Shown piece after piece: positions 17,445 through 57,900 of a stretch of 64,000 nucleotides of DNA (positions within the stretch are counted from its first letter, which is position 1; each line of letters starts with the position of its first letter). Under the pieces are notes generated by a model, which did not search any database, was not told the DNA's origin, and saw only the letters and a list, made by a program, of their open reading frames with translations. This DNA is from Cladocopium goreaui (taxonomy: Eukaryota; Sar; Dinophyceae; Suessiales; Symbiodiniaceae). The DNA lies in contig CAMXCT020001083.1 of assembly GCA_947184155.2 (NCBI GenBank), positions 62,001 through 126,000 of the forward strand, written 5' to 3'. Made by a program: the position numbers and the translations under genes.

Positions 17445-18305
17445 AAACGGTCGCGGCGCCGGCGTCAACTCAGACCCAAGCACGCCACCAGAGCCAACCC
17501 AAGCACGCCACCAGAGCCAGCCCAGTGCCGTAAGTGCCACGCCTGCCACGCAAAGCGACGGTCCATGTCGCCAAGTGCCACGCCTGCCAGGCAAAGTGAC
17601 GGTCCATGTCGCCAAGTGCCACACCTGCCACGCAAACGGCCGCGGCGCCCACGGCGTCAACTCAGACCCAAGCGCGCCACCAGAGCCAGCCCAGTGCCAT
17701 AAGTGCCACACCTGCCAGGCAAAGTAACGGTCCATGTCGCCGCCAAGTGCCACGCTTGCCGCGAAAAGTGACGATGCGTGTCCCCAAGTGCCACGCCTGC
17801 CACGCAAAGTCCACGTCCATGTCGCCAAGTGCCACGCTTGCCAGGCAAAGTAACGGTCCATGTCGCCAAGTGCCACGCCTGCCACGCAAACGGCCGCGGC
17901 ACCCACGGCGTCAACTCAGACCCAAGCACGCCACCAGAGCCAGCCCAGTGCCGTAAGTGCCACGCCTGCTACGCAAAGCGACGGTGCATGTCGCCAAGTG
18001 CCACGCCTGCCAGGCAAAGTGACGGTCCATGTCGCCAAGCGCCACACCTGCCACGCAAATGGCCGCGGCGCCCACGGCGTCAACTCAGACCCAAGCGCGC
18101 CACCAGAGAAAGCCCAGCGCCGCCACGCCTGCCACGCAAAGTGCACGTCCATGTCGCCAAGTGCCACACCTGCCAGGCAAAGTAACGGTCCATGTCGCCA
18201 AGTGCCACGCCTGCCACGCAAACGGCCGCGGCACCCACGGCGTCAACTCAGACCCAAGCGCGCCACCAGAGCCAGCCCAGTGCCGTAAGTGCCACGCCTG
18301 CCACT
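17445..18305. repeat. GC-rich tandem array (aagtgccacgcctgccacgc family)
   Basis: Units of about 42 bases (ccaagtgccacgcctgcc, acgcaaagcgacggtccatg) are nested in a longer unit with gcgtcaactcagaccc and gccaccagagccagccc. The array also occurs at 32,578-33,180. Frames encoding repeated CHACH arise from it but shift between units. Confidence 0.85.
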
Positions 18306-24885: not shown

Positions 24886-25401
24886 CGCACCCGTGGCGTC
24901 TGTCACAAGATGATGGCCAAATGCCAAATGGCCACGCCGTTAAGGCACGACATATTGGCACACATGACCCTATAGTATATACATATCATACATGTACGCG
25001 TGTACAAAAAATAATTAATGATCAAGTATGCAAGATATGCAAAATATATGAAGGGATGAGTATATTCTGCAAACAGCTGCGCTTCTTTGGGTTGTTTGGG
25101 GTTTTCAAGTGTGTAACTGCTCTGCTGTCAGTAGGACGGATGGTAAAACTGTCTCAGCGCTTGAGGTATATCAACAAATAGCAATCAACACTGGTCGATA
25201 TTTGCCTTGTCCGTGGTTTCATCCCCAAAAAAAGTGAGTCCTTGGAGGATCATCAAGGGAGAAAATACGATAAATCAAAACTCGCATCTCGGGACCGACA
25301 CTATGTTGCAACAAACTATGTATATATATAATATATAATCCTATGGTATATATATATTAAATATTATATGTGTTTCATACTTATATGTTATAAATAAATC
25401 A

Positions 25402-26437
25402 CTTTACTTCGTGTGATCCCCACCATGACATTTATACATTTTCTTACTGGCAAATCTTCTGGCATTCTATCTGACATATCTTCTGACATTCTATTTGGCA
25501 TTCTATCTGGCATATCTTCTGTCATATCTTCTGGCATTCTATCTGGCAAATCTTCTGGCATTCTATCTGGCATATCTTCTGGCATTCTATCTGACATATC
25601 TTCTGGCATTCTATCTGGCATATCTTCTGGCATTCTATCTGACATATCTTCTGGCATTCTATCTGGGCATATCTTCTGGCATATCTCTATCTGGCATATC
25701 TTCTGGCATATCTCATATCTTCTGGCATATCTTCTGGCATATCTTGTCAGGGCATATCTTCTGACATTCTTTCTGGCATATCTTCTGATTCTGTTCATAT
25801 CTTCTGACATTCTTTCTGACATTCTTTCTGGCATTCTATCTGGATCTATCTGGCATATCTTCTGGCAAATCTTCTGGGATTCTATCTGGCATATTTTGTG
25901 GCATTCTATCTGACATTTTATCTGGCATTCTATTTGGCATACCTTCTGGCATTCTATCTGACATTTTATCTGGCATTCTATTTGGCATTCTATCTGGCAT
26001 ACCTTCTGGCATTCTATCTGGCATATCTCATGGCATTTTATCTGGCATATCTTCTGGCATTCTCTTTGTCCCATATCTTCCTACATGAGGTCCGACAGGG
26101 AACACTTGGCATGGATACTCGCAGATGAGGTCCGGCAGGGAACACTGGGCGTGGCTGGTCGTGGTTGAGGTCCGGCAGGGAACACTGGGCGTGGCTGGTC
26201 GTGGTTGAGGTCCGGCAGGGAACACTGGGCGTGGATGGTCGTGGTTGAGGTCCGGCAGCGAACACTGTGGATCGCGAGTCGCAGTTGAGCAGGAGGACGA
26301 GGAGGACAACGAGACGAGGAGGACAACGAGAGGAAGAGGACAACGAGAGGAGGAGGACGACGAGAGGAGGAGGAGAGGAGGAGGAGGAGCAGGCAATTTA
26401 GATAAAATCTAACAACCCTCACCTGGCAGGTGGGGAA
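25402..26437 (-). mobile_element. family 1 minisatellite element, copy 1 (inverted)
   Basis: In reverse orientation it starts ccccacctgccaggtgag (26437-26415) and ends gtggggatcacacgaag...taaagt (near 25402). It contains a 40-bp repeat (gaggtccggcagggaac core, four copies, 26,088-26,290), a CTC/GAG-rich spacer and about 50 units of a 12-b repeat (gccagaagatat / gccagatagaat in element sense). Both ends match copies at 42,243 and 50,567. No transposase is encoded. Confidence 0.75.
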
Positions 26438-41003: not shown

Positions 41004-43397
41004 ATGGCCTCCACTTCTTTTTTTGAACCCTCGGGTGCGATGCTTTCGCGTAACAAACGCTCCAGGGAGGCTTGTGGCTCACCAAGGATCTCGCTGATCC
41101 TTGGCTGTGATGACTTTCAGGTGAGAGGGCATATACACAGATAAGATACTGTTAAAACACTACGGGAAATACATGGAAATACTGTAAACGTAAACTATAT
41201 GTTTATGGCCGTGTGACATGGGCAATTTCCAACCATTGGAAACCGGACCAATGCACAGCCAGGGATCTCTTGTGGCTCTCGGCTCGCCTGCGACTTGGGC
41301 GGCAGGGTTTGTTTCACCACCGACAGGTTCTCCCGCTTCTTGAGGTTCCGATCACCACCACCGGGAGGACCCCAGGCATTGTCTGGGGCGACGCCTTCCT
41401 GGGGCGCACAAACCAAATTGCTGAGATATGTTGAGATACCGCATGTGACCATCTTCAGTTGGAAAAATCAAAAGATTGAAACGATTGAAAGAGCATACCT
41501 GCAAACTCCAAATGACCTTTTATTTTTGCCAGTTTTGAAAAAAGCGACTTTGAACACATCGAGGCGATAAAAATGCCCCAGGGCGTTTTTCATAACTTGC
41601 AGGCGTTTCTGCAGTTCTAGGGTTCAATCAGGGTTGATGGGTTGATGGCCCATCTACTGAAGTCTTCAATGGTACGCCCCCTCCCTGCCAGTGACCAATG
41701 CCTGCATTTGAGAAATTTGCTTTGCAGTATTCAATCTTCAGCTTGCTCGCAGCATTTTTGGCTGCATCATCCCTCGATCTCTCATTTCATTTTCAAAATG
41801 GATCCGGAAGTCCACAAGATTTTGGATGATGCAGGCAAGCTTGATGAGACTGCTGACTAGAGCAAGGATGTGATATCAAGTTCCTATACTACACTAGCTG
41901 TATAGATTATAGATGGTTATCCTGGGAGGTTTGTCCAAAATGCCGGACGGTTTCTTCAAGGAGGCCCGGCGTGCGCTGTGGCCACTGAGCGAAGCAAATG
42001 ATTCTTTTCCGCAAAGACCCAAGTACAAGCCACAGTCCAGGCAGTTGTCATTCCCGCCTAGAATGAGGAAACCCACGGGAACCCAGAGCGCATGTCTCAG
42101 GATCCTTTGGATGTCAACAAGGCCAAGGTGCTGGTGGACAATTTTGCTGCTAAGGGTGCCGTCTTCACCCTTCATGAATTTTATTGGCAGTGGAAAGCTG
42201 AATGCAACCTGTCTCATATGAAAAAGATTTCAAACATTTAATTCCCCACCTGCCAGGTGAGGGTTGTTAGATTTTATCAGAGTTGTTCTTCTCCTCCTCC
42301 TTCTTCTTCTCCTCCTCCTTCTCCTCCACCACCTCTGCCTCCACTTCCATGTCCACCTCCGCCTTGCCAACTCTTCGCCAAGCTCTTCGCCAACTTCCGC
42401 ACGCAGTGGGCGCTGCTGGACCTCAACCTGGGACCTGCCGAGTTCAGTGAGCACCGCTGGACCTCAACCTGGGACCCGCCGAGCTCAGTGAGCACCGCTG
42501 GACCTCAACCTGGGACCCGCCGAGCTCAGTGAGCACCGCTGGACCTCAACCTGGGACCTGCCGAGCTCAGTGAGCACCGCTGGACCTCAACCTGGGACCT
42601 TCCGAGCTCAGTGAGCACCGCTGGACCTCAGCCGAGCTCAGTGAGCACCGCTGGACCTCAACCTGGGATCTTCCGAGGTCAGTGAGCACCGCTGAGATAA
42701 AATGCCAGAAGATATGCCAGATAGAATGCCAGATAAAGTGCCAGAATGTTTGCCAGATAGAATGCCAGAAGATTTGCCAGATAGAATGCCAGATAGGATA
42801 TCAGAAGATATGCCAGCAAATATGCCAGATAGAATGCCAGAAGATATGCCAGAACATATGCCAGAAAATATGCCAGATAGAATGCCAGAAGGTATGCCAG
42901 ATAGAATGTCAGATAGAATGCCAGAAGGTATGCCAGATAAAGTGCCAGAATGTTTGCCAGATAGAATGCCAGAAGATTTGCCAGAACATATGCCAGAAGA
43001 TATGCCAGGTAGAATGCCAGAAGATATGCCAGAAAGAATGCCAGATAGAATGCCAGAAGATATGCCAGAACATAATGAACATATGCCAGAAGATATGCCA
43101 GGTAGAATGCCAGAAGATATGCCAGATCGAATGCCAGAAGATGTGTCAGATAGAATGCCAGAAGATATGTCAGATAGAATGCCAGAAGATTTGCCAGTAA
43201 CAAATCGATAAATGTCATGGTGGGGATCACACGAAGTAAAGTAATGTTTCGTTATGGCATGGTATGACTATAGATTATCAATGTTTGGCTTTCGTGCTAA
43301 TGTCCTTGTCCTAGGTGACAAGCTGCGCGAAGAGATGACCCCGGGAGCTGGTGAAACTGAAATCCCGGCCACGCAGCCGGACACCGCCAGCTCATAA
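41004..43397 (+). CDS. plus-strand gene P0, partial exon set
   Basis: The first exon is 41004-41120: ATG two bases after a pyrimidine-tract CAG (a good trans- or cis-splice acceptor), reading MASTSFFEPSGAMLSRNK, CGSPRISLILGCDDFQ and a strong donor CAG|GTGAGA. Coding stretches at 41,790-41,860 (MDPEVHKILDDAGKLDETAD, stop), about 41,931-42,047 (GFFKEARRALWPLSEANDSF) and about 42,070-42,210 (MSQDPLDVNKAKVLVDNFAA, FTLHEFYWQWKAECN) follow. The last exon, 43315-43397, reads DKLREEMTPGAGETEIPATQ and ends in TAA. A family 1 element fills the intron between the last two. Chaining of the middle exons is not secure and more than one gene may be involved. Function unknown. Confidence 0.4.
41200..41460. 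other. open in three frames, possible exon
   Basis: The plus strand (LLWLSARLRLGRQGLFHH and on) and the minus strand (NLVCAPQEGVAPDNAWGPPG) are both plausible. Splice sites do not decide between them. Confidence 0.25.
42243..43242 (+). mobile_element. family 1 minisatellite element, copy 2
   Basis: Starts ttccccacctgccaggtg and ends gtggggatcacacgaag followed by taaagta. Order inside: gagggttgttagattttat, a ctcctcctt tract, about six copies of a 41-b repeat (ctggacctcaacctggg, agctcagtgagcaccg), then about 40 units of the 12-b gccagaagatat / gccagatagaat repeat. It lies within an apparent intron of the plus-strand gene P0. Confidence 0.78.
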
Positions 43398-43908
43398 GAA
43401 GTTGACCTCAACTGATTTCCCATGGCATAGCAGCAGGAGTTTAAAAATGAGGTAGGCGCTTATGGGCCTGCACGGTGTTCAACGTACAAGCATGTTTACA
43501 ATTGAACATCCTGCCCCAACGCAGGTTTCTCTATGTCGACACTTTACTTGCTGATAGCTAGTGCGCCCGGTAGCTTCTGAGCAGCCACTGCCTGTTTTAT
43601 CCCCGTGTTTGGTGGCACAGGTACATCTACACCAAATTGAGGAGCTTGGATGTGGCAGCTAAAGTTGCTTGTTGGAGGCCAGCCCATGACTAAGAAACTT
43701 TGGTATGGTGAGTCTTAGTTGAATTCGATGCTGTATATTTCATGGCTTCCCACTTTGGCAAGGCCACCGGAAAGAAAAGGTGTTCTTCGAGAGTTCAAGG
43801 TCTGCCCTCCTTTGTTTTGTGCCAAGCCAGGTCCACCAATCCAATTCAAGTCCAGCAGTCCTCCAGCCCTAGTGTGATAGTGTGATTTTTAATTTGGACA
43901 TGTGCCAG

Positions 43909-46900
43909 GTGCCGGGCTCTGCGTTGGACAAGTACCCTTTCCGACCTGGGCTGGACATTGCTCAATGTCAACTTCTTACAGAAGACGTTCCGTGAAGAAC
44001 ATTGTCATGTAAAAAACATTCAGACTCAAGATGCTTTGATATTTCAAAAATGTATCAAGCATTTTGGCCCTAGCAAAGTACGTGTATCAGTCAACCTGTT
44101 GCCATGGGGGATCCTGTGCCCATACTTGGTGAGAACCGAACGTTGCATGGATTGGGTACGGCTTGGGAATCAACCAAATCTATTCGCCGATATGTTCTCA
44201 AAGAGGGCCAGCTACTTCGGTGGTCCACCAAAGAGACGGTTGGAGTGGTGAACTTCCCAACGCTGAAACTGAATCGCCAAGTGCTAGAGCATTTGCTTTC
44301 TTTTTGGTGCCCCCAAGCCCAGGACCGCAAGACGGTTCCGATCAAGCTTGTCAAGCCTCAGGCGGACAGGGCTGTTGTCTTTGGAACATCAGTGACTATC
44401 GACTATCAATGGTTTCTACTCCCAAATCTGAAGTGATCTTTTTGGCTTGCCATGTCAGATTCGTGAACTCCGTCGTTCGCTGGAGTTACCGGAGAATGGT
44501 GCGCTGGTGCACTGCGAAGCCCATGCCTTGAAAGCTATGGTTTCATTGCTCATTCGTCGGCATGACGGGTCGAAACGACGAGTTGCTAGACTCCAAAATG
44601 TGAGTATGGAATCGCATCCCATGTTACATGGAAACCCCGTACATACATAACATCTTGATCCCACAGATTGCACATATCATCTGTATATTATACGTTTCCT
44701 TTTGCCAAAAAATAGAATGCAAATTGTTTTCTCTAAGGACGGGGATCTGGCCAGCTTGTTTGCTGTCCTTGGTGACTTCTTCACCACTCGCCCCAACAAC
44801 AGCCGCTCCAGGGAGGCACTGGGTGATGCAGAGGAGGAAGAGGCTGTAGGAGAGGGCCTCAAGGAAAGTGAAGGGGGAGAGGTGACTCAGGGAGAGGTCG
44901 CCCAGGAAGAGGGTGAGGAAGGTGTTGGGGAGAAAGGTGGGGAAGGTGGTGAGACCGAACCGCCCACTCATGATGAATATGATGAGCCTGTTGATGGTGA
45001 TGCTCCCCAGGCACTCCCTTCTTGCCCCACCACACCAGTCAAGAAAACTTTGAGCTTCGAAGGGGATGATGACCCCATGAATGAGCTTTTGGCATTTCGG
45101 ATGGGGGGTGAGTCCATGGTGAAACCCACCCCGTCTCCTGGCCCAACCTGGGCTCCAAGCCCTGGACATGGATCGCCAACCTCACCAAGTGCTCTCGCGG
45201 ACAGTTGGGAATGGGTCCAGAAAGAGCTTGCCCGAGTTGAGTATCTAGGCTCCATCCCAATCAAACCAAGGTACTTTCTAGCCATCAACAAGTGTCCTAT
45301 AGACAGGTTTTTGGAGCACAAAAACATGTTTTTCAGGTCACTTGTTAAAATACCCCCAAAGTCAGTCTTTAGGGTTCCAGTTGGTTCTTCTTACCTGTTC
45401 CTCTGTGACATCTTAAAGTGCACCCAAGGTATGAAATGGAACAGCGAAAGTTGTCCTTCTTGGGGCAGAAAGCCAAATCGAGCTGGAACCTTGATGCTTC
45501 AGGTGTGGTATTAGGATGATGCCATTTGAAATCTCAGTGATGAACTACGGGTTATCAGCTATCGTTCACTTTTATTGTCTTACCTGTTTCAGGTGCTTGT
45601 GGACCTGAATCTGATACCATGCCCTATGACCATGAAGAAGCCGCCCACGAAGTTCAAGCTGCTGTGGCCCAAATTGAAGAAGCATCCCATGTGACTACAA
45701 CCCCTGAAGATCCCAATGTGGAAAAGGTTCCTGGCCCACTTGCAGCATCCACCCCCGAGATGCCGCCGCCTTCGTTCATCCCAAAACGTGCCCGGAAGCA
45801 GCTGCCTGCAGGCCCACTTTCCGAAACATCTGCTGGTTTGTTGGAGGATGAGGCATGGTGTGGGTTGTTCTTGTTTTGTTTCCAACTGCTTGTTTGGCAG
45901 GTTGTCGCTTTGATTGCCATCAGGTGGATGTCTCGAGGCACAAGCAGATCGCCGAGTTTCCAAAGCCTAAGGCAAAGGCCAAAGCCAAGGGCAAGGGAAA
46001 GGGTAGGAAGGCTGGGCGGGGAAAAGGAAAAGGCAGAGGCAGAGGCAAGGCTGAAACAAAGAAACGAAAGGCTAAGACCAGTTGCAAACCCGCAGCCACC
46101 CCAAAGGCAAAGGCCAAAGGGAAGGCGAAGGTGAAACCCTCAAAAGGTGCAGAGGAGGTGCCAGGGTCGAAGGTTGAGGTGCCCAAGGACAAGGTTAAAG
46201 CGACATTTGCCCGCCGCAATTGTCCCAAGTCAGAGCCAGCCAAGAGCTGGCATGTTGCAGTGCGTGGTGTGTTTGAATCCGAGCTCCAGCCGCTTTTGAA
46301 GTGCCCCAGCAAACATGAGGACTGCCCTCACTGTACTTGTTTGTGGTGCTGGTATGGATGGCTAAAACCTATCACAAAATTCTAAAACATATTGATCGCC
46401 ACAGCTTATCAGGAGCCCTTCTTGATCTATTGCAACCAGCAATTTGAGAATGAGGAGAGCTTGAGCCCCCGTCGGTACAAGGAATGCTGCTCACAGTGGG
46501 CCCATGATTTCGAGAATGATTTGGACCAGTCTTTGTTGAAACGTTCATCCCTTATTTTTCATTTGGCTGAGATCCAATCCTCCTTCAATCATGACAAGCG
46601 CTCTGTATCAACATCACTAAATCTAAGTTCATTCCGAGCCCACTGTCAAGGTCAGAAGGTGGACTAACACCTACAGCGTCTGAGCGCTCTCTACCATCCA
46701 TGGGCTTAGAAGAATGCCCCGTTTGGAACTGGATGCTGGCTTCCAGAAATCTTGGGGGGAAAGGAATGCCAACAGCTCCTTAGTCAATCATGTTCAGTTC
46801 TCAAATGTCTCGAAACAGAAACTGTTATCTGTTTGCCTTCTTAGCTTTTTAGCTTTCCATAAAATCTTTGATGCATTCCTGAAGGAAACCTAGGCCCTGA

Positions 46901-49175
46901 GAATCAGGGGTCTGGGCGTTGGAGGTCGTACCATTTTGTCCTTACATCGGGACCGGTGCCTTTGGATGAGAGATGACAGCGTGAAGCCCGGGGAAAATGT
47001 TAAGCAACAAGGCCCCATTGTGTTTTGATGATGATGGTTGACTCACAACAAAATAACTTACATTCATGCTTATCCCCCACCGTGTCACTATGGCGTACCC
47101 ATGAAACTGAATTGTTCCTTTTGGCCTCATGCTCCCCTGCGCAGGTACTGACACATGCCCATCCTCTCTGTCTATGCCCGCCTTGGGTCACGGTGTTCGC
47201 AAGATGACGGCGAAGGCTGGCCTGGCAGATGCGTGGGCCGATGTTGCGAGGGTTGGTTTCTGCTGGCTCCCATGCTGAGCAATTTCTGTAAACCCATCAC
47301 CTGCAGTTTTTTCACCAAAAGGATTGGTAGTTTGAAGTTCGGTGGGGCGCCATGAACCGGTCCCAAATTGATCTCACCATTCGGCGCCTCATCCATTGCA
47401 AAGCTCCCTGGGAGTCCTGCCAGCACAAAACATGAGGGATGACGAGTGGCTATGAGTCTGACCAATGAACTTGGTACTGTTAAGTGAAAGTGGTGGTGGT
47501 TACCCCACCAGCTAAGGCTTTTGTGGTATTGGTGGTACTTACCTCATACCTCGACCTGTGGGATGACGACCCGCAGTTTGAAGTGATGGAGCTCTATGCA
47601 GGAGCCGCCAGAATCACTCGCTTGGCTAAAGCGCTTGGTTTGTCAACATGTGGACATGATATCTCTTTCGACCGCAGTCAGAAGTCAGCTTTCGACCTTC
47701 TTGACAATGCTGGCTTTGTGTTTCATTGGTACTTGTTTCGGGAAATTGTTGTTTATTTCAAGTTGAATGCTATTTTGAGACTTTGTTACCTGGGCAGGTT
47801 TACCCCCCAAAACTGGAATGTTTTCCCACAAGTCGGAATGCCATCTAAGGTTGGCGATTTACTGTATATTGAGCTCCAGGTATTCTTTCCTGACCCTGAT
47901 GATGGGCATTCTTTGCAGTTCGTTCGTCCAAATAAATTCGGGTACGTCTGGAAGAGATTGGCTGACCCCAGAGGGTGTTACTCGCTTTCCTTCCGTTTTC
48001 AACTCAAACCTGCTCGTTGCCAGGTGCTGGCTGAAAAAGTTCACCTCGGTTAAAGGTTGCCTAGGGCAAGAGCCCAGAAGCCGCTTTTAAACACTTGGGC
48101 TTTGGATGATGGGGCATGTATAGTATAAGACACCCTAATCTTTTTTGAGTTGAGCTAGTCAGTTACTTGTGTTCCCAAAACACCCTGGAGGTCAATGCTG
48201 TTGGCTCTTCTCACAATTTGTTGCCGCGGGACAGTGCTAATAGAAAATCCTGACAACAGCTTCATTAACCAGCAGCGAAGATTCCGATGGATGGCTAGGA
48301 AACTACGACGCATGGGGCTTCCAGTCACATGTCTAAAAAACAAATTGGGTTCGTTTTGTAACCCTGTTTATTAGGTTGTTGTGCTTTTTGTCCAGCCCCA
48401 AAATATTATAGTCAACAGCTTAGTTTCTCGAATTTTGCCCACTAAGATGTATCGGTGCTCTTTCTGGATGAAGCACTGGGGAGGAAAGACTGCAAAAAGA
48501 ACCAAATTGTTCAGTTGGTCATGGGCTGTGTCTGTATTCAAGACTGCTAAGCTCAAGAAGAAGGATCGAAAATCAACAATCAAAACTGCTTTGGGCTATA
48601 CGGATGCCAAAGGGGTGCGTCGGTGGAAAGGCACAGGTGCATTGAAGAGTACACAGTTCCTTTTTAGCAGTGGGTGTCGGTAAGGTTTCTGTGACTACTT
48701 TATTTGTAGTTGGAAAATGTTTCGACTCACCCAACTCCCCAAAATATCAAATTAAATTGGAGGGTTGGAGAAAACACCAATCCCTTCCCCTCCCCAGCTG
48801 CTGCCCAGGGTGTATAGTCCTCTCTTTGCAGCTGCAGTTCTTCGTGCCCGACGAGCCTTGCGGAGCACGGCAAGCAAAGTTCCAAAGGTGGTGGATGGGA
48901 ACCCCGGGTCCTTAGCTGGCCAAAAGATGTTTGATTTTCACCTTTGGGGATAAATCTAAAGTTTATTGTATCCAACACATAGCGGGTGTGTTCTTAGCAA
49001 GTCCCTGGTACAGGTCGATGAGGCTACCCCACTTCCTCAATTGCTAGCTTCCATGGACAAAGGGGGAGATCAGTGGATCGATGCTGCTCTCAAACCGGCA
49101 ATCGTCTATGCCCGTGGATCCAAGCTGTTGAAGCTCCCAGATTCATACCGTGCTGTCATTCCCAATTCTATTTAA
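43909..49175 (+). CDS. P1: large protein with acidic, Lys-rich and C5-methyltransferase-like regions
   Basis: Exons: 43909-~43982; ~44104-44430; 44459-44599 (donor AAT|GTGAGT); 44738-45270 (Glu/Gly- then Ser/Pro-rich); 45373-45428; 45593-45835; 45901-~46350 (Lys/Ala/Gly-rich, then TFARRNCPKSEP and CPSKHED); 46405-~46528; ~47511-47719; 47880-48023; 48191-48323; 48447-48655; ~48790-48884; 49014-49175 (TAA). Phases match across 44459-45901 and 47880-48655. The late exons carry VMELYAGAARITRLAKALG (like SAM-binding motif I), GILCSSFVQINSGTSGRDW (position of catalytic motif IV), VLIENPDNS (like ENV, motif VI) and RRWKGTGALKSTQ. I recall these strings in a repeated Symbiodiniaceae protein family. 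Enzymatic activity is unproven. The 5' end and the 46.5-47.5 kb exons are unresolved. Confidence 0.7.
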
Positions 49176-49350
49176 AAACCACTTGAATTGCAATTCCAAA
49201 TTCAAGATTCTGCCTGACTCCAGGCAGTGCAGCAATTAGCCGAGACATTTGCCTGCGCGCAACAGCCAAACAAAAAACAACTGACATGAACGCAAAGATG
49301 CCTGCATTTTGCATTTTTCTGAGATTTTCACAAAATTTCAGAAACTGTTG

Positions 49351-49405
49351 CCGGCGTAATTACCCGTCATTCCGGCGTAATTACGCGTTAATCCGGCGTA
49401 ATTCC
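49351..49405. repeat. 22-bp triple repeat (ccggcgtaattac)
   Basis: ccggcgtaattac occurs three times at about 22-base spacing, in the region 3' of P1. It might be a terminal or subterminal repeat of the mobile unit. Confidence 0.6.
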
Positions 49406-49419
49406 CCGTAGGCAGATTC

Positions 49420-50030
49420 TGGGTAATTTTTTGGGAGTGCAAACAGCCTTTATATCTGTTAGATTTGGCTTCAAGTTGGTGGGATGCAATCTCTTCCTAG
49501 TAGGACCCTATCTTCTGAGACTTTACTTCGGGGTGCAGGGATTGTTAGATCACAAACCATGTCGATCGAACGAGATTCTGAGTACGCAGCCCTCAAAGAA
49601 CAGCGTGATCTTTTGTTGGTGACTTGGTGGGTGCTCAACCTTTTATTGTGACCAATTGTTTTCCAGTTTTCCCCTACACTGTGTTCAAGTATACCATCAA
49701 AAGTTTCCATCTCTCCCAGGACGTATATTTTCTTATGGTCTGAAATCTGTATGTATACTACTTTCTTTCAAAAGTTTTTTGACACATTGGTTCGAGCTTG
49801 ATCAACTAAACATGTTTTTATGTTAGTGATGCTTAAAAGAAGTAAAGTATATCTATTCTAGATAATAGTATGTATGGTGGTTCCCCCTAGTATAACAATT
49901 ATATATGCACAATATATATATATATATGGTTTCATGTGTACAGATCAAGTTTCAAGATCGTAGATTAAAAACACATTATGGTTGTAAATTGCAATCCTTC
50001 TATTTTACAATATGTGCATAGCGCATACAT
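49420..50030. other. P1-P2 intergenic or intron, no exon seen
   Basis: AT-rich sequence with a (ta)n tract at 49,912-49,926. No coding stretch supported. Confidence 0.35.
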
Positions 50031-50040
50031 AATTGTTGAC

Positions 50041-53000
50041 GCCCCCCACGATCAAAGACATCAAGCTTTTCGCCAAAAGGCTCTTAGCACGAACAATCGT
50101 GCCAGGGTATCCCAAACCACCCACACCCTCAGATGCCGATGGTCTGTCCTCCTTTCTAGCCAAGGCGAAGAAAGAGCTCCTGATGAGGGCCCAGGTGGAT
50201 GGCTCACGGGCGACCAAGAAGAAAAAGGAAATTAACTTGGAGGAATACCCCTGGTGTGACACAGGTGCCCAGCCCACTGAATCCATGTACGTACCTAGGC
50301 TCTCACTGAAACTTGTGGGTGGCAAAGCTAGGTATGAAGTATTGTGTCATTCAGTTTTGCTGTGGGGATTCTTGATTCAATAACTTACAGTTGGGGGTTG
50401 GGTTCACCACAATGTCTACACATGATTTGGCGGTCAGCATGTCCTTAGGTAGGCTGATTCTCTCATCCAACAGACATGGAATCCTCACACTGAATGTTTT
50501 TGGGGCGGCCTTTTTGATTCACTCTGTGCTCCACTCAACGGTTGAAAAGTTTACCCAAAAGTTTTTTCCCCACCTGCCAGGTGAGGGTTGTTAGATTTTA
50601 TCAGAGTTGTTCTTCTCCTCCTCCTCGTTCTCCTCCACCACCTCTGCCTCCACTTCCATGTCCACTTCCGCCTTGCCAACTCTTCGCCAAGCTCTTCTCC
50701 GACTTCCGCACGCAGCGGCCACTGCTGGACCTCAACTGCAAGGGTCTGAGCGCACTGGGCACCACTGGAGTGAGCACCGCTGGACCTCAACCTGGACCCA
50801 GTGAGCACCGCTGGACCTCAACCTGGGACCCTCCGAGCTCAGTGAGCACCGCTGGACCTCAACGGCCAGATAGAATGCCAGAAGATATGCCAGATACAAC
50901 GCCAGATAGAATGTCAGAAAGAATGCCAGAAGATATGCCAGATAAAGTGCCAGAATGTTTGCCAGATAGAATGCCAGAAGATATGCCAGATAGAATGCCA
51001 GAAGGTATGCCAGATAGAATGTCAGATAGAATGCCAGAAGTTATGCCAGATAAAGTGCCAGAATGTTTGCCAGATAGAAGCCAGAAGATTTGCCAGAACA
51101 TATGCCAGAAGATATGCCAGGTAGAATGCCAGAAGATATGCCAGATAGAATGCCAGATAAAGTGCCAGAATGTTTGCCAGATAGAATGTCAGAAGATATG
51201 TCAGATAGAATGCCAGATAGAATGTCAGATAGATTGCCAGAAGTATGCCAGATAAAATGCCAGAATGTTTGCCAGAACGTTTGCCAAAAGATTTGCCAGA
51301 TAGAATGTCAGAAGATATGCCAGAAGATATGCCAGATAGAGTGCCAGAAGATATGCCAGAACATATGCCAGAAGATATGCCAGGTAGAATGCCAGAAGAT
51401 ATGCCAGATAGAATGCCAGAAGATATGCCAGATAAAATGCCAGAAGATATGTCAGATAGAATGCCAGAAGATTTGCCAGTAACAAAACGTATAGATGTCA
51501 TGGTGGGGATAACTCGAAGTAAAGTAATTTTCTTAGGGTGATTTGCCTGGCTCAGGAAGCAGAATCTCAACCTGCTGCTGAAGGGCCACAAGAACATGAT
51601 GGTCCGAAGTCCCCGGATGTCGTTGTTGCTGTGGAAGATTCAACCCCCAAAGGTCTTGAAGAAATTCCAATTCCCGCTGATGGCCCCCATGATGATGGCA
51701 GTGAGAACTTGGTGAAAGAACCGGAAGGTACCAGTTGTGGGAACAAGACTCCACAACCCAGGTCCCCGATCTTTCCCCAACAGAGCCTGCCTCCGCCAAT
51801 CAGACCCAAGAGGGTGAGGAGGATGAGGACGACGCTGTGCCTCATCAGCCCCCTCCCGAGGAGCTGACCAAGGCAGCTTCTGAAGCCCGCTTGAGGCGTG
51901 TGATGGCCCCGAGATCTGATGGCTCCTACCTCGTCCCTAAGGAAGCTGTGGATATGTGGAAGGACAAAGACAAGAGGGATTCGCTGAAGAGCATGTTTCA
52001 GAAGTGCGGGCATTGCCCTGTACCATGACAAGATGGTTGAGCTATTTTATTGATCCCCATATTATATAATAGCCGATATTATATTATAAGATATCTTCGT
52101 AAATTTACATATATATAGATAGATATTAAAGTATATTTTGAACACACCTCACACCACAGTCTTAGACATCCTCACCACCGAAAGCCTGATGCCTTTTGTT
52201 TCCATGTGATCAAGGAAGCTTTCCGCAAGCGCGTTTGCAAGATCTACGAAGAAGTGACAGAACAGAACGTCGAGGATGATTATGAGTTCATGACGGAAGC
52301 TGACATGAAGTCCCTGGTTCCACCCTTTTCTGAGATACTAGGAGGCATAGAAAACAAACTAGTTTCACTACCCCTGGCCAGCCTTTTGAAAATTCAAGCC
52401 CTTGAAAGCCCTGCTCTTCCTTCCCCTGGCCAAACCTTCTGAACCGCAGCTGCCAGCTCAGGAAGAAGATCGCGAGCATCAAGAAGACCTGTGCACAGAA
52501 AGAAGGCTACATCAGGATCCACGGGGTCTGCGAGCGGTTGCTGGGAAGGTTCTTCTATTGTAGCACTTGCTTTTGGGATTCTCTGTGTAGCGTTAGTTCT
52601 CCACACCCATCTCTGCCAATTTTAGAAGAGTTGGGGGGTCCTTCTTGTCCCGTGTGATATTCCCATTGCACCATCTTTCGTAAATTTTCAAGCGGCATTG
52701 AAAAACAACCAAAAAATAGTCTCCCTGTCTCGGAGGAAGTCTGAATATGGCGAAGGCAAGATGTATTGGGTTTGTGTAAAGAAGCGAGGATCTCTCAAGT
52801 GGCTTTGCGGCAGCTGGTCAATACTTCAAAATCCTGAACCTCATTTTTTTCCTCACTGAAGCTATCCCACATGAAAAGGCAGCACTATAGACTCTAGACC
52901 TAGGGAAGGAACTGGACCATCAACCACTAGTCACTTCAACCAAGATACCTGGCTTACATCCATTGTACTGGGGGCAACCGATTAAGGCGAACCAAGCGGA

Positions 53001-54262
53001 ACATCTTCCGGGAGATTGTTGAAGAGGATGCGCCGAATCTGGAACCGAAACGTGTCAAGCGAGATTCCTTCGACCTGTTGGAAGGCCCAAATGGGGGATG
53101 CTGTGGTGGGGTGCAGGGTTTACCTATAGGTCCCGAAAATTTGGAATGCAATTCTTACTAAACTCACAAGTCTCAAGTTGGCTTGTCTCTGCCAGGAAAG
53201 CGGAGCAAGAAGAATCAAAGTGAGTCCGCTGCTCCGTCTGTCAAGTCGGTGGAATCCCCCGACTCTCCCAAAGATGACGAGTCCACAGCCTCCTCTGACG
53301 AAGGCGCTAAGGAGCAAGAGAAGGTACTCAAATCTTTGGCCTTTCCAGAGATTGAGACGGGCAGCTTCAGTGCAGATTGGTGCCCCAAAATCAACAAGTG
53401 CATCTCTAAGAGGTTGACAAAGCTGGAGCTTCAGTTGACCCAGTTTCCGCCCGTTGAGAAGCAAACGTCCGTTCAACAGCAGTGGGGGCCCTAACCTTTT
53501 TGAAGCCAATCCGATTGGTTGAATACTGTGAACTTGAGAAGTCCAGAGTCAAGATGAACCAGTTACCTCCATTGTCTTTATCGTCGCTACCAGTGCCATC
53601 CCCGTGCTGAGGATGCACGCCAAAGTGCAGGGGCTGATCAAGGATCTTGCCGGCCTGGCTGAACAGATCGGGAATAGCTACACAAAGGGTTTGGTGGATG
53701 GGTTTGACCGACCGTCCATGCCTCAATCCAAGTTTCGAAATAGCTCTAAACACATCAACATGTTCTGCGATTCAGGTCGATGAAGGTCATCAAAGCCCAG
53801 TTTGGGGAGGCAAAGCGCAAGCCCAATACTCAGGTCGTCTTGAAATTCACATGTTTGTCTCTAGGACTCTGGGCTTGTCCATAGTTGCAGTTCCTCTTCA
53901 AATGTTGAATGTTGATTGGCTTGTATGTTGCTTAGGGCCATTGAGTCCTATGCCCTGGATGAGCGTTTGAAGTATGATTCTCAGAGAGAATTCGCAATCC
54001 TCCTGTCAACACATGGTGCTTTGAACGTCTGAAAGCATTCCACTCCTACAGTGTTGGGCCAACACCTTCCATCGATGCATTTATTTGCCAAGTTCTGGCT
54101 TTCCTGAGGCATGTCTTGAAAAGCAAGGGGCCTACTGTGCCAAAGGCCAAGACAACTCCCAAGCCAAAGGCGTCTTCTGTGCCTTCTAGCAAGAAGGCCC
54201 CCAGCAAGGCGGCTTCGACGCCCAAAGCAAAGGCTTCTGGAAAGGGCAAGGCGAAGGCTTAG
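50041..54262 (+). CDS. P2: charged multi-exon protein of the mobile unit
   Basis: Exons: ~50041-50291 (DADGLSSFLAKAKKELLMRA, EINLEEYPWCDTGAQPTES); 51556-~51710 or 51727 (PADGPHDDGSENL); ~51761-52019 (ARLRRVMAPRSDGSYLVPKE, SMFQKCGH); 52215-52316 (DDYEFMTEADMKSL); 52457-52515; 52736-52801 (YGEGKMYWVCVKKRG); 52987-53084; 53196-53466; 53594-53731; 53776-53833; ~53940-54030; ~54040-54262 (tail rich in Lys/Ala/Pro, KASGKGKAKA, TAG). Phases match from 52457 to 53833, with GA (52516) and GC (52802, 53085) donors. The order RLRR..P..DGS..VP, then F.TEADMK, then YWV matches what I remember from repeated Symbiodinium proteins. No enzyme motif seen. A family 1 element sits in the first intron. Confidence 0.65.
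50567..51525 (+). mobile_element. family 1 minisatellite element, copy 3
   Basis: Starts ccccacctgccaggtgag and ends gtggggataactcgaag then taaagta. The 41-b repeat is reduced to about three copies; the 12-b repeat has about 45 units. It lies in the intron of P2 between 50,291 and 51,556. Confidence 0.78.
52040..52200. other. AT-rich P2 intron
   Basis: The tatatta-rich interval between exons 52,019 and 52,215 is consistent with an intron. Confidence 0.45.
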
Positions 54263-54306
54263 CTGCGAGGGGGCCAGTAGCCAATTTTAACCTTTGCTTT
54301 TGAGGG

Positions 54307-56624
54307 GTGCTGACGTCTGCAACGAAGCCTTGCAGCATACGTCTCAGTAGGTTTATCAAATGTTTGGGCGTATGTCTCCATACGCTGCTGGGGGGCACGC
54401 GTCACATGTGCTTCAAGTTTTGCTTTCTGAATCTTTGCGGATCTGACAAAAATGCCGCCAAAACCACTGCTGCATGCAGCCTCCATTGGACCTGGTGTTA
54501 CATGAATCGCTGTCTTAAAGAACACAAACACCTAGCCACCAACAATGGCCGACTTTGCTCTTTCAACTCTTGGGCAGGCATCCCCTGTGAGTCAGACGAC
54601 CCTGAGCAGTTGAACTGGGCAGAGTCCTTGGGGAAGGTGTGCCCTAGCTGAATTATATTTGGAGTCGAATGGGGCTCTGTTTTGGAGAGGGTGATCAAAC
54701 CATAGACAAAATGTTGTCCTCCCATTACCATTTTCAACAGCAAAGAAACTTCTCAAATTTGTGGTCAAGCCTCTGCCCATGCATGGCTGCCCAGGACCAT
54801 GCCTGCAAGATCAAGCGGAACATGGCCATGCGTGCCATCAATGACCTGAGCGGCAAACGGAAGGCAGAGGCCATGGAGGATGAGGAAAAACGCAGAAATG
54901 TTACCAATGCCGAAAGGGATCTGCATAAACATTTCCGTAGGCTTGGTCTTTCTTTGGCGATACCGATTAGACAATTGAAGCACACACTCTCTGATGGAGG
55001 AACTGGGGTCACAGAGTACATCAACCCATCAGATTGGTTGAAACTATTGGTGCGGAAGTACTCATTCTTGCTAGCTGGTGGAACTTCACCCATTGAGAGT
55101 ACATTGCTCGGATTCTGGGAATTGTATCGGTTTCACCATCCTTGCCACCCCGTCTTTGCGATCCACAACCAGCACCTTGGAAAAGTCTTTCCCCTTTGCT
55201 TTTGGGGAGATGAAGGGCGAGGACCACGGCGGAGCCATTATTTGGAGGGGACAATCGAATGCCCGCTGGGGCTGTGGGATAAGGACGTCACTTGTGACTG
55301 TCATGACTGTTTGCAGTCATTGCCTGCTCACTGGCTACCAGCTGAACCCTCACAAATTCGGGATACTCCCCATCTTGACTCTGTAGACCGGATTGAAACC
55401 AATTACCGTGGCCATTCTTACTTGAAAAGGCACTTCCTCTTTGGCTTGCCCGGGTTCGTATATGAAACTGAGCCGGGTATCATCAAGAAACATTTGGAAG
55501 TGATTGCTGATGACCTTGTGAATCTATTCAACACTGGCTTTCGCAAAGACGATGATGTATTCTATGCAGCATTGATCGGATCCAAAGGTGATTTGAAGTT
55601 TCAAGCGCAGACCATTGCGTCCATGACGCGTTCTTATGCAAACATGGGAACCATAAACCAAATCAGAATGTGTTCACTCTGCAGAGCTGGGGACCCAGAC
55701 TGTCCCATGGAGGATGTCAATGTGGAACCTGGGTGGCAGCACACGATGTATTTTGACCGTCCATGGGAACAGGGCAATGCGCCACCTTTCACCCGGGTAC
55801 CCCATGATCATCTACACCCAGAACGGCTTTACAAGCTCGATTTCTTCCATTGCTTCAAAGTGGGCTTGGCCAGAGATATCATTGGTTCCACCGTTATTTG
55901 GCTTTGCCATTTGGGCTGCTTTGATCTTCAAGATGGAACTCAAAATTTAGATGACCGCCTGGAAAGAGCCCACACCCAGTTCAAGTTGTGGGCCCTCACT
56001 GAAGGATATTCCCCAGCATTACGAAGCTTTACAAAACATTTCATGAATTCTCGGGTGTATGCAGATTCTGCTTGGGCTAACTCGAAAGGAAGTGATAGCA
56101 TGATACTACTGCGTTGGTTGCGGTTTTATCTGGGATTGATTTTGTCAAGCCCGTGTGATGCAGTTCAACCCCATGCCTTACATTTGCAGCTCGTGCGTGA
56201 TGTCATCCACAATAGCATTTCCATGTGTGATTTGGTGTACTCCCACAACCTTTTCTTACGGAGACATTGTGCTCGAAGATTGTATCTTCACATTATGGTC
56301 GTGGTTCGGGGGTACAAGAAAATTGCTGCTTACTGCTTAGAGAAACACTTGCCGGGCTACAGACTGAAACCTAAACTGCATGCTCTAGCTCACATGGCGC
56401 TTGAAATCCGTAAAGGCTTGAAAACAAAGACCCCGAGATTGCTCAATGTGCTGATTTGGGCATGTGAGATGAATGAAGACCACATCGGGCACGTGGCCCG
56501 ACTCTCACGAAAACTGGCTACACGCACGCTCGGCCAGCGCCTGGCTCAAAGATACTTACTCAAATCCAAAGCGCTGTTCAGGAGACACTTGGAGAAAAGA
56601 AAAAAAAGTAAACTGAACACATGA
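54307..56624 (+). CDS. P3: probable DDE-type (CACTA/KDZ-like) transposase
   Basis: Transposases of this fold cut and join DNA through three acidic residues. Exon 1 ends at 54636 (GK|GTGTGC) and is Cys-rich (FKFCFLNLCGSDKN). Exon 2, from 54795 (ctgcccAG), joins in phase and is one 609-codon frame to TGA. Numbering residues from 54669, I see CFWGDEGRGPRR (D181), SKGDLKFQAQ (D308), a CSLCRAGDPDC zinc-like knuckle (C335, C338, C345), KLDFFHCFKVGLARDIIGS (D391), KPKLHALAHM (H571, H575) and CEMNEDHIGHVARLSRK (E600, E603, D604). In CACTA and KDZ transposases a first Asp, a second Asp followed by CxxC, a D.FH...K block, an H..xH block and a final acidic block occur in this order. That makes the assignment plausible though unverified. 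The long exon is intact. Confidence 0.68.
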
Positions 56625-56639
56625 GGCGTTGACCTCAAA

Positions 56640-57900
56640 AACTCTGTCTTGAAGCTGGGTGCCCCTGCTGAGTTGATATAGCTGCCGTGGCTGAAAAAAA
56701 GGAAGCACGGAATGGGGAAGCCATTGGCACAGGGAATGGTTCTTCCTTGTTGGAATGTAGACCCTGCAGCTGCAATGTTTCTGATTTAATCTTGGGGTAA
56801 TATCAATTGATATCAAGTGCCTTTGCAAAGACCCCCCACGAATTATATATTATATTGTATATTGTATATTTGGATTTTTATGTTAAACTAATCCACCATG
56901 CTTAAAGGATTTTTTCCCTGGCTTTTTTTGCCAAGATGCTACTTGTCTGCAATGTTGAGTGTGGCGAGGAGGCTGCTGCGAGTGAAATACCCATGGGACC
57001 ATAAATGGCTAGTTGGGGGGAAATTATCGTACTACTTGCTGGTAACATTCCAATTCACAATTCCTACTGGGTGTTGACTATGTCAATGGTATGTTCCAAC
57101 TTACCACATGGTATCAATTCCGGCAATTTTGGATAGTGCCGGCGATCTTGTTGAGTATTTTTCAGTTCGCGGCGATTCCAGGTCGTGCGGGCATAAATCC
57201 AGTACACAATCCAAACAGGCAAAAATATTTGCCAGAAGATTCTCTAGGTATGAGGAATTACTAGGAAGGAAATGGGCCGGTGAAAATATTGAGAGACAGG
57301 GAGAGGAAAACCAAATATTGAAGTTTAGTTTAGGGGATATGATGGGGATATGTCAAAATATGCCAAAAAAAAAAAACAACAGATGCATACCGATGCTATG
57401 GTTTCAATAGCTAACCCTGCAAAACTACAGGAGGTTCTGGGGCCCCCAGATGTTCCTTTGACCCATAGCAGCAAAAATCCCACATTGTTCCGGTCTAGAT
57501 CTAACTGATTCCACATGATTGCTTGTTAAATCCCACTATGCGCCGCTAAATCCCAAGTTTTAATTAGTTCGATGGTTGGCAGTAAATCCAATTATATATA
57601 CCATCAGTTCTCTATTATCATTAATTATGGTCCCCACTGTAGCAAATTTAAGCTGGTTCAACCAGGTTCAACCTACACTCATGTAGGTTATTTGTGAGTT
57701 GGGGATGGGTCACGATTTATTCTTACCATATTTGGGCGATTCACCATCCGTTAGCCAGCTATTTTAGGGTACCTAGGGTCCCAGTGGTTTCGCCGTGCGT
57801 CTACTGCCGCGCGCCGGCGCGTTGACACACCCAGAAGGTCATCGGGGCTGCTTTGCCGAGCCTGGCGATTCATAACATGGCCAATCTTGGACTGGATTTG
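56640..57900. other. downstream of P3, no supported gene
   Basis: There is unique sequence with a short ttatattgtatattg tract near 56,845. A plus-strand frame at 57,108-57,410 has a possible exon but no reliable boundary. Candidate right limit of the mobile unit; I did not find a clear inverted terminus. Confidence 0.35.

Follow-up and report, generated by a model that had tools for sequence, protein, structure and literature searches.

The window, by which is meant the whole 64,000-nucleotide stretch of Cladocopium goreaui DNA that was analyzed, contains a 15.8-kb unit that is a recently moved DNA transposon with fixed ends and many diverged subfamilies, and that moves as an intron-containing block. 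Quite probably it is a recently mobile cut-and-paste element whose transposase, P3, belongs to the CMCT clade (CACTA/EnSpm, Chapaev, Transib/RAG1, ESTA); less firmly, P1, probably fused to P2, would be a divergent cytosine-C5-methyltransferase-like protein that methylates the DNA of its own element. An earlier, sequence-only reading had described P1, P2 and P3 as three consecutive and well-spliced genes on the plus strand, and both the open frames and the splice model bear out this order. That they form one unit also holds, with the corrections that the unit is larger (Table 1) and that P1 and P2 are probably a single gene.

Table 1. Coordinates of the element and its parts in the window
Feature	Position	Strand	Remarks
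Complete mobile element	41495..57251	+	15,757 bp; 5' ATACCT ... AGGTAT 3'; C22 copy with the same sharp limits
Left end with ATACCT as short terminal inverted repeat	41495..41550	+	Window and C22
Right end, ...AGGTAT	57196..57251	-	Compared across P3 copies
Nested repeat cassette (CCCCACCTGCCAGGTGAGGG ... GGTGGGGAT) with GCCAGATAGAAT tandem array	42242..43268	+	Inside the element
P1 N-terminal part, 7 exons	44104..46544	+	Splice model; parts match gene model P0043
P1 exons 1-4	44104-44391, 44459-44599, 44738-45270, 45429-45502	+	
P1 exons 5-7	45593-45852, 45924-46319, 46413-46544 (acidic, Lys-rich linker)	+	
P1 methyltransferase-like domain, 4 exons	47562..48656	+	All four recur on C22, C569 and C418
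P1 exon with ELYAGAAR, motif I-like	47562-47719	+	
P1 exon with CSSF, motif IV-like	47850-48023	+	
P1 exon with IENP, motif VI-like	48191-48323	+	
P1 exon with KRTKLFS	48447-48656	+	
P1 tail exon (AAVLRARRALRST...), limits approximate	48830..48919	+	P0043 506-536, 45% identity, E 7e-5
Second copy of CCCCACCTGCCAGGTGAGGG ... GGTGGGGAT cassette	50566..51531	+	Between P1 and P2 exons
P2 exons, first five	51556-51726, 51762-52007, ~52203-52324, 52452-52513, 52700-52790	+	
P2 exons, last five	52977-53091, 53192-53481, 53594-53717, 53777-53826, 53937-54010	+	
P3, predicted transposase, single exon	54678..56624	+	648 aa; open frame 54648-56624
P3 acidic residues	D178 (55209), D305 (55590), E600 (56475)	+	
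P3 Cys/His pairs	C332/C335 (55671/55680), H568/H572 (56379/56391)	+	

The copy on C22 is 99.8-99.9% identical to that of the window from one end to the other, and the identity stops abruptly on both sides, where the flanks are unrelated. Over the 15,757 bp, 10 substitutions and 5 indel events separate the two copies. The P1 exons are free of them; P3, which is frameshifted on C22, has three substitutions that change an amino acid and one indel, and one exon of P2 has an indel. Because introns are retained between such nearly identical copies, the element moved as DNA. Its left end matches the right end imperfectly in the subterminal region. The right end AGGTAT recurs in 20 of 22 other P3 copies (8 near-identical sets), with a one-base variant in two (L012 and L024), while the left end ATACCT is also present in five further copies (C846, C5981, C224, C3112 and C807). 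By coordinates the elements are 13.9 to 15.8 kb long, C224 and C3112 having been read outside their middles only. Of the two nested repeat cassettes, the second is probably intronic.

The assembly (1.17 Gb, 6202 contigs) was searched exon by exon and only the best candidates were scored (for P3 the best 67 of 1082), and the P3 counts are lower bounds: at least 69 matches were obtained, at least 58 of them free of internal stops, at no fewer than 66 places after three fragments were merged. Matches to the P1 domain number at least 164 and those to P2 at least 74. Of the 66 listed P3 places, 36 are preceded by a same-strand P1 match at a distance of 5.0-7.7 kb, where 0.04 would be expected, and 32 are accompanied by P2. 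The full series P1, P2, P3 is present, in this order, at 23 places; at least one of P1 and P2 accompanies P3 at 45 and neither does at 21. Seen from the side of P2, 57 of the 74 matches have a listed P3 on their own strand within 10 kb downstream. Nine rows in which side or strand does not agree with this arrangement can all be read as one tail-to-tail pair of copies on C569. The linkage of the three genes is beyond chance, and their order and orientation are constant where they are found together. The outcomes that were to speak against a mobile unit, a single syntenic locus or genes never adjacent elsewhere, are contradicted by these many copies at unlinked loci, among them near-identical ones with unrelated flanks.

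Near no listed P3 are 88 of the 129 P1 rows used and 17 of the 74 P2 rows, which may represent elements with an unscored P3 or P1 without P3. One such place (L035, on C347) was read directly, and its frames resemble P1, P2 and a split P3, again in this order. Across 12 loci the P1 distances (56-aa exon) track the P3 distances (r 0.84, p 0.0002; r 0.72 for the 10 without twins), and the P1 exons have pN/pS values of 0.27-0.43 with silent sites nearly saturated; together these results indicate that P1 has long been constrained and has travelled with P3. For P3 inside young subfamilies changes are few and selection is hardly visible in pN/pS, the pair L003/L004 including a fragment. Named relatives occur in Symbiodinium microadriaticum, S. 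pilosum, Durusdinium trenchii and an EukProt entry with the prefix Skav, which we take to be Fugacium kawagutii; these relatives and the splice sites agree with an origin in Symbiodiniaceae. Viral contigs searched with P3 and P1 profiles contained no relative.

The flanks of the window element run from GAGC into ATACCT and from AGGTAT into GAGG, with no 7-8 bp repeat in common. Alignment of flanks, as proposed in the sequence-only reading, yielded the common ends, whereas the target duplication could be read only indirectly. The right flank of C61 is a dispersed repeat that is element-free at all four other places read (C2990, C1702, C2282 and C1369), where it reads CTCATATG; the left flank lies off the contig, and the four element-free relatives all have ATAT at the junction. 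The same ATAT stands at the junction in 5 of 5 right-flank relatives of C807 that lack the element; its right flank is continued by a repeat to which the left flank of C807 has no match, which indicates a rearranged locus. The right flank of C224 is duplicated on C3505 next to a different left side, and C1437 beside C1258 is an AT-repeat. Searches with joined flanks returned no empty site for the window insertion, only the two halves, and for C846, C5981 and C3112 only their own halves among the best 40 of 1007 candidates. At none of the loci were both flanks found together with an empty allele. Since left ends read ATA/CCT and ATAT is found at the element-free junctions of right-flank relatives, a duplication of TA within ATAT is favored and would fit better than AT.

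P3 is predicted to fold as a DDE transposase of the RNase H type, into which a helical domain is inserted in the manner of RAG1/Transib. In an alignment of 42 members (P3 and 41 relatives), D305 is present in all 42, C332-x2-C335 in 42 and 41, H568-x3-H572 in 40 and 39 (2 gaps each) and E600 in 37 (4 gaps); D178, D305 and E600 are the candidate catalytic acids. This motif set and the RAG1/Transib-like fold suggest that P3 belongs with the DDE transposases of the CMCT clade. Pfam transposase models match none of the 42 members, and as the CMCT models are silent too, this result alone excludes neither KDZ nor CMCT. A search of the PDB by sequence gave nothing useful for P3, and a search of the genome with PF02992 gave no match, but its controls were equally silent and it is uninformative. 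The fold lists include no CACTA or KDZ structure among their rows; to our knowledge, none has been solved.

The splice model of P1 comprises 11 exons (44104-48656) in a single frame of 833 aa. Of its ten junctions, nine are properly bordered, seven by GT-AG, one by GC-AG and one by GA-AG. The tenth, 46544/47562, spans a gap in the model (46545-47561), and these two limits, like the outer limits of P1, are arbitrary. P2 is made up of short frames that resemble exons (51556-54010) and whose joins are inferred; most of these frames recur in the C22 copy, and several also do so in diverged copies. P1 and P2 are probably a single gene, with P2 as its 3' half, because one protein, the 693-aa EukProt gene model P0043, unites the N-terminal part, the IENP piece and the tail of P1 with the P2 domain.

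Cytosine-C5 methyltransferases possess motif I (FxGxG), motif IV (PCQ, with the catalytic Cys) and motif VI (ENV, with a Glu). ELYAGAAR, CSSF and IENP, which had been singled out at the outset as occurring in this order, are present in P1 as a relaxed form of motifs I-IV-VI, and the Cys of CSSF and the Glu of IENP are kept in all 15 other P1 copies read. The distant relative P0078 has PPCSTW and IEQP and is the sole place with a Pro before the Cys. In the predicted-fold ranking of P1, C5 methyltransferases occupy the top 15 rows and 40 of 50 rows. Sequence comparison did not extend this likeness: PF00145 gave zero matches to P1 and its relatives at E-value limits up to 10, hhalign of P1 against five PF00145 proteins gave none (P3 was run as control), and nothing useful for P1 or P0078 was found in the PDB by sequence. 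PHROGs returned only weak matches to unknown or tail families, NCBIfam no relevant match, and the first protein search with P1 a single match covering 13% of the query. Motif order, conserved Cys and Glu and fold ranking thus suggest that P1 is a divergent cytosine-C5 methyltransferase-like protein, an assignment weaker than that of P3, as sequence-profile support is absent.

In the proposed mechanism, P3 would pair the element ends, cut at CCT...AGG and insert into ATAT, most likely duplicating TA. Less firmly, P1, probably fused to P2, would bind SAM and methylate the element DNA before or during insertion. The genomes of this group are mostly CG-methylated (PMC5890265), and such methylation would make the element resemble its heavily CG-methylated host genome and thereby hide it; alternatively, methylation may gain or regulate the recognition of the element ends by P3. 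A wider proposal can be made only tentatively, namely that this is an undescribed dinoflagellate branch of RAG1-like (CMCT) transposons that, while diversifying, for the most part kept a divergent C5 methyltransferase of its own, acting on cytosine (or another pyrimidine), and that methylates its ends or new insertions. If true, a transposon would write the epigenetic mark of the host on its own DNA, whereas the fungal transposons with TET are presumed to remove this mark. A single protein now suffices to test if mobile elements write methylation instead of erasing it. Three recurring dinoflagellate "hypothetical protein" strings become one transposon with known ends, and on fold and motif evidence RAG1-like transposases extend to dinoflagellates. 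The element is also an example, present in many copies in a cellular genome of a mostly CG-methylated group, of a DNA transposon associated with a methyltransferase-like gene.

The mobile unit and its transposase could be correct and P1 still be no methyltransferase but some other, or a decayed, accessory protein of Rossmann-like or DNA-binding type, such as a partner of the transposase; TnpA is such a partner of TnpD in plant CACTA elements. This is rather unlikely in view of the motif order, the Cys and Glu kept in every other copy read, the place of C5 methyltransferases in the fold ranking, the PPCSTW and IEQP of P0078 and the constraint on the P1 exons. That P3 is instead a KDZ (Kyakuja-Dileera-Zisupton) transposase derives from the motif impression of the sequence-only reading, which had placed it near CACTA/KDZ; the transposase part of that claim stands, with motifs and fold pointing to CMCT, and KDZ is very improbable. 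All 42 members are without a Pfam transposase match (the CMCT models being silent too), P3 has, between its second D and its E, the C(2)C and H(3)H arrangement that PMC12730594 gives as the CMCT signature, and the ends imply a 2-bp TA/AT target, against the 8 bp of Zisupton and Dileera and 7 bp of Kyakuja given there, with no such repeat at the window flanks.

Segmental or tandem duplication of an ordinary gene cluster, or duplicates of the assembly, would agree with the rearranged or inverted surroundings of some copies (the tail-to-tail pair on C569, the flanks of C807), and yet near-identical copies with unrelated flanks begin at the same base, diverged subfamilies have the same termini, the joined flanks of the window, C846, C5981 and C3112 match only as halves (for the last three among the best 40 of 1007 candidates), and the C61 right-flank repeat continues without the element at 4 of 4 places read, which leaves this explanation extremely improbable. 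Hardly credible at all is a retrotransposon with a DNMT gene, of the kind documented in Symbiodinium as SymbioLINE-Dnmt and SymbioDIRS-Dnmt3 (PMC5890265), as introns are kept between copies, P3 is by predicted fold a DDE transposase, P1 has no PF00145 match, and the lists of PF00145 places and P1 places, compared by eye, do not overlap. The eight long element frames and the spliced P1 that were scanned contain no reverse transcriptase.

A transposon with its own CMCT-type transposase and methyltransferase-like gene, the preferred reading, can be set beside several known systems. According to Kojima (2025, PMC12730594), CMCT elements (CACTA/EnSpm-Mirage-Chapaev-Transib, with ESTA and RAG1) have 5'-CA..TG-3' termini in most cases and 2-5 bp target duplications, and ESTA elements are EnSpm-like with TA target duplications, some fungal ones carrying a TET/JBP DNA-modification gene. 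The present element would resemble them in the 2-bp TA duplication that is favored for it, a size within the CMCT range, as AT would also be, and in its putative DNA-modification cargo. It differs in its CCT...AGG termini in the copies read (varied in L012 and L024) in place of CA...TG, in the lack of a Pfam match, in a methyltransferase-like gene instead of TET/JBP, and in its dinoflagellate host, its length of 14-16 kb and its intron-rich accessory gene. The fungal KDZ elements with TET/JBP named in the same source likewise combine a DNA transposon with a DNA-modification gene, from another transposase lineage and with opposite chemistry. SymbioLINE-Dnmt and SymbioDIRS-Dnmt3, the LINE and DIRS elements of Symbiodinium with DNMTs (de Mendoza 2018, PMC5890265), are also mobile and carry a cytosine methyltransferase gene; they differ as mostly intronless retrotransposons with PF00145 domains and no DDE transposase, and the count of PF00145 genes in that study is one by which P1 would be missed. 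The literature covered, with most subscription journals and Repbase outside it, yielded no DNA transposon of a dinoflagellate that carries a methyltransferase-like gene. The principle of joining the two is not new, however: as reported by Bao and Jurka (2013, PMC3627910), Mariner-1_OLpv and Mariner-2_PGv of algal viruses encode a transposase and a methyltransferase, of C5 type in Mariner-1_OLpv, and the present element would share this pairing, while they differ from it in their Mariner transposase, their location in virus genomes and an extra endonuclease, and P1 for its part is missed by C5-methyltransferase models.

Among the P1-domain (methyltransferase-like) rows in the C. goreaui assembly, 88 of 129 had no P3 (transposase) nearby among the matches listed; these 88 may represent elements whose P3 was not scored, transposase-free copies of P1, or host genes. 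Contig C6086 (299700-310380) carries two P3 copies that point the same way and are separated by about 9 kb; neither P1 nor P2 (the exons between P1 and P3) is among the matches listed there. On C569 (~356000-375300), two copies of the element (loci L003 and L061) are placed tail to tail with their right ends facing, which is a composite or palindromic arrangement.

The right flank of the element copy on contig C224 is duplicated on C3505 (L060, 17518-19717), where the duplicate starts at the insertion point and the adjoining sequence on the other side differs from C224, as if the same break had been used by another insertion or rearrangement. A AAGTGCCACGCCTGCCACGCAAA satellite in the window (17532-18304) is similar to the DNA to the right of the element on C418 (locus L004).

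The window also holds three copies of a TTCCCCACCTGCCAGGTGAGGG ... GGTGGGGAT repeat cassette with a GCCAGATAGAAT tandem array, two within the transposon and one outside. The cassette may be a small element in its own right, either mobile or carried by introns.

Copies of the repeat cassette
Feature	Window position	Strand
Copy outside transposon	25398-26437	-
Copy within transposon	42242-43268	+
Other copy within transposon	50566-51531	+

A related element at L035 (C347:634500-644499) has an intron pattern unlike that of the window copy: its P3 is apparently split across two frames and its P1 lies within one frame from motif IV through the C-terminal part, the opposite of what the window copy shows. 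The same genome yielded 125 matches to the C5-methylase domain PF00145, many of which fall into equal-score sets; these are probably the DNMT-carrying retrotransposons that de Mendoza 2018 (PMC5890265) describes in Symbiodinium.
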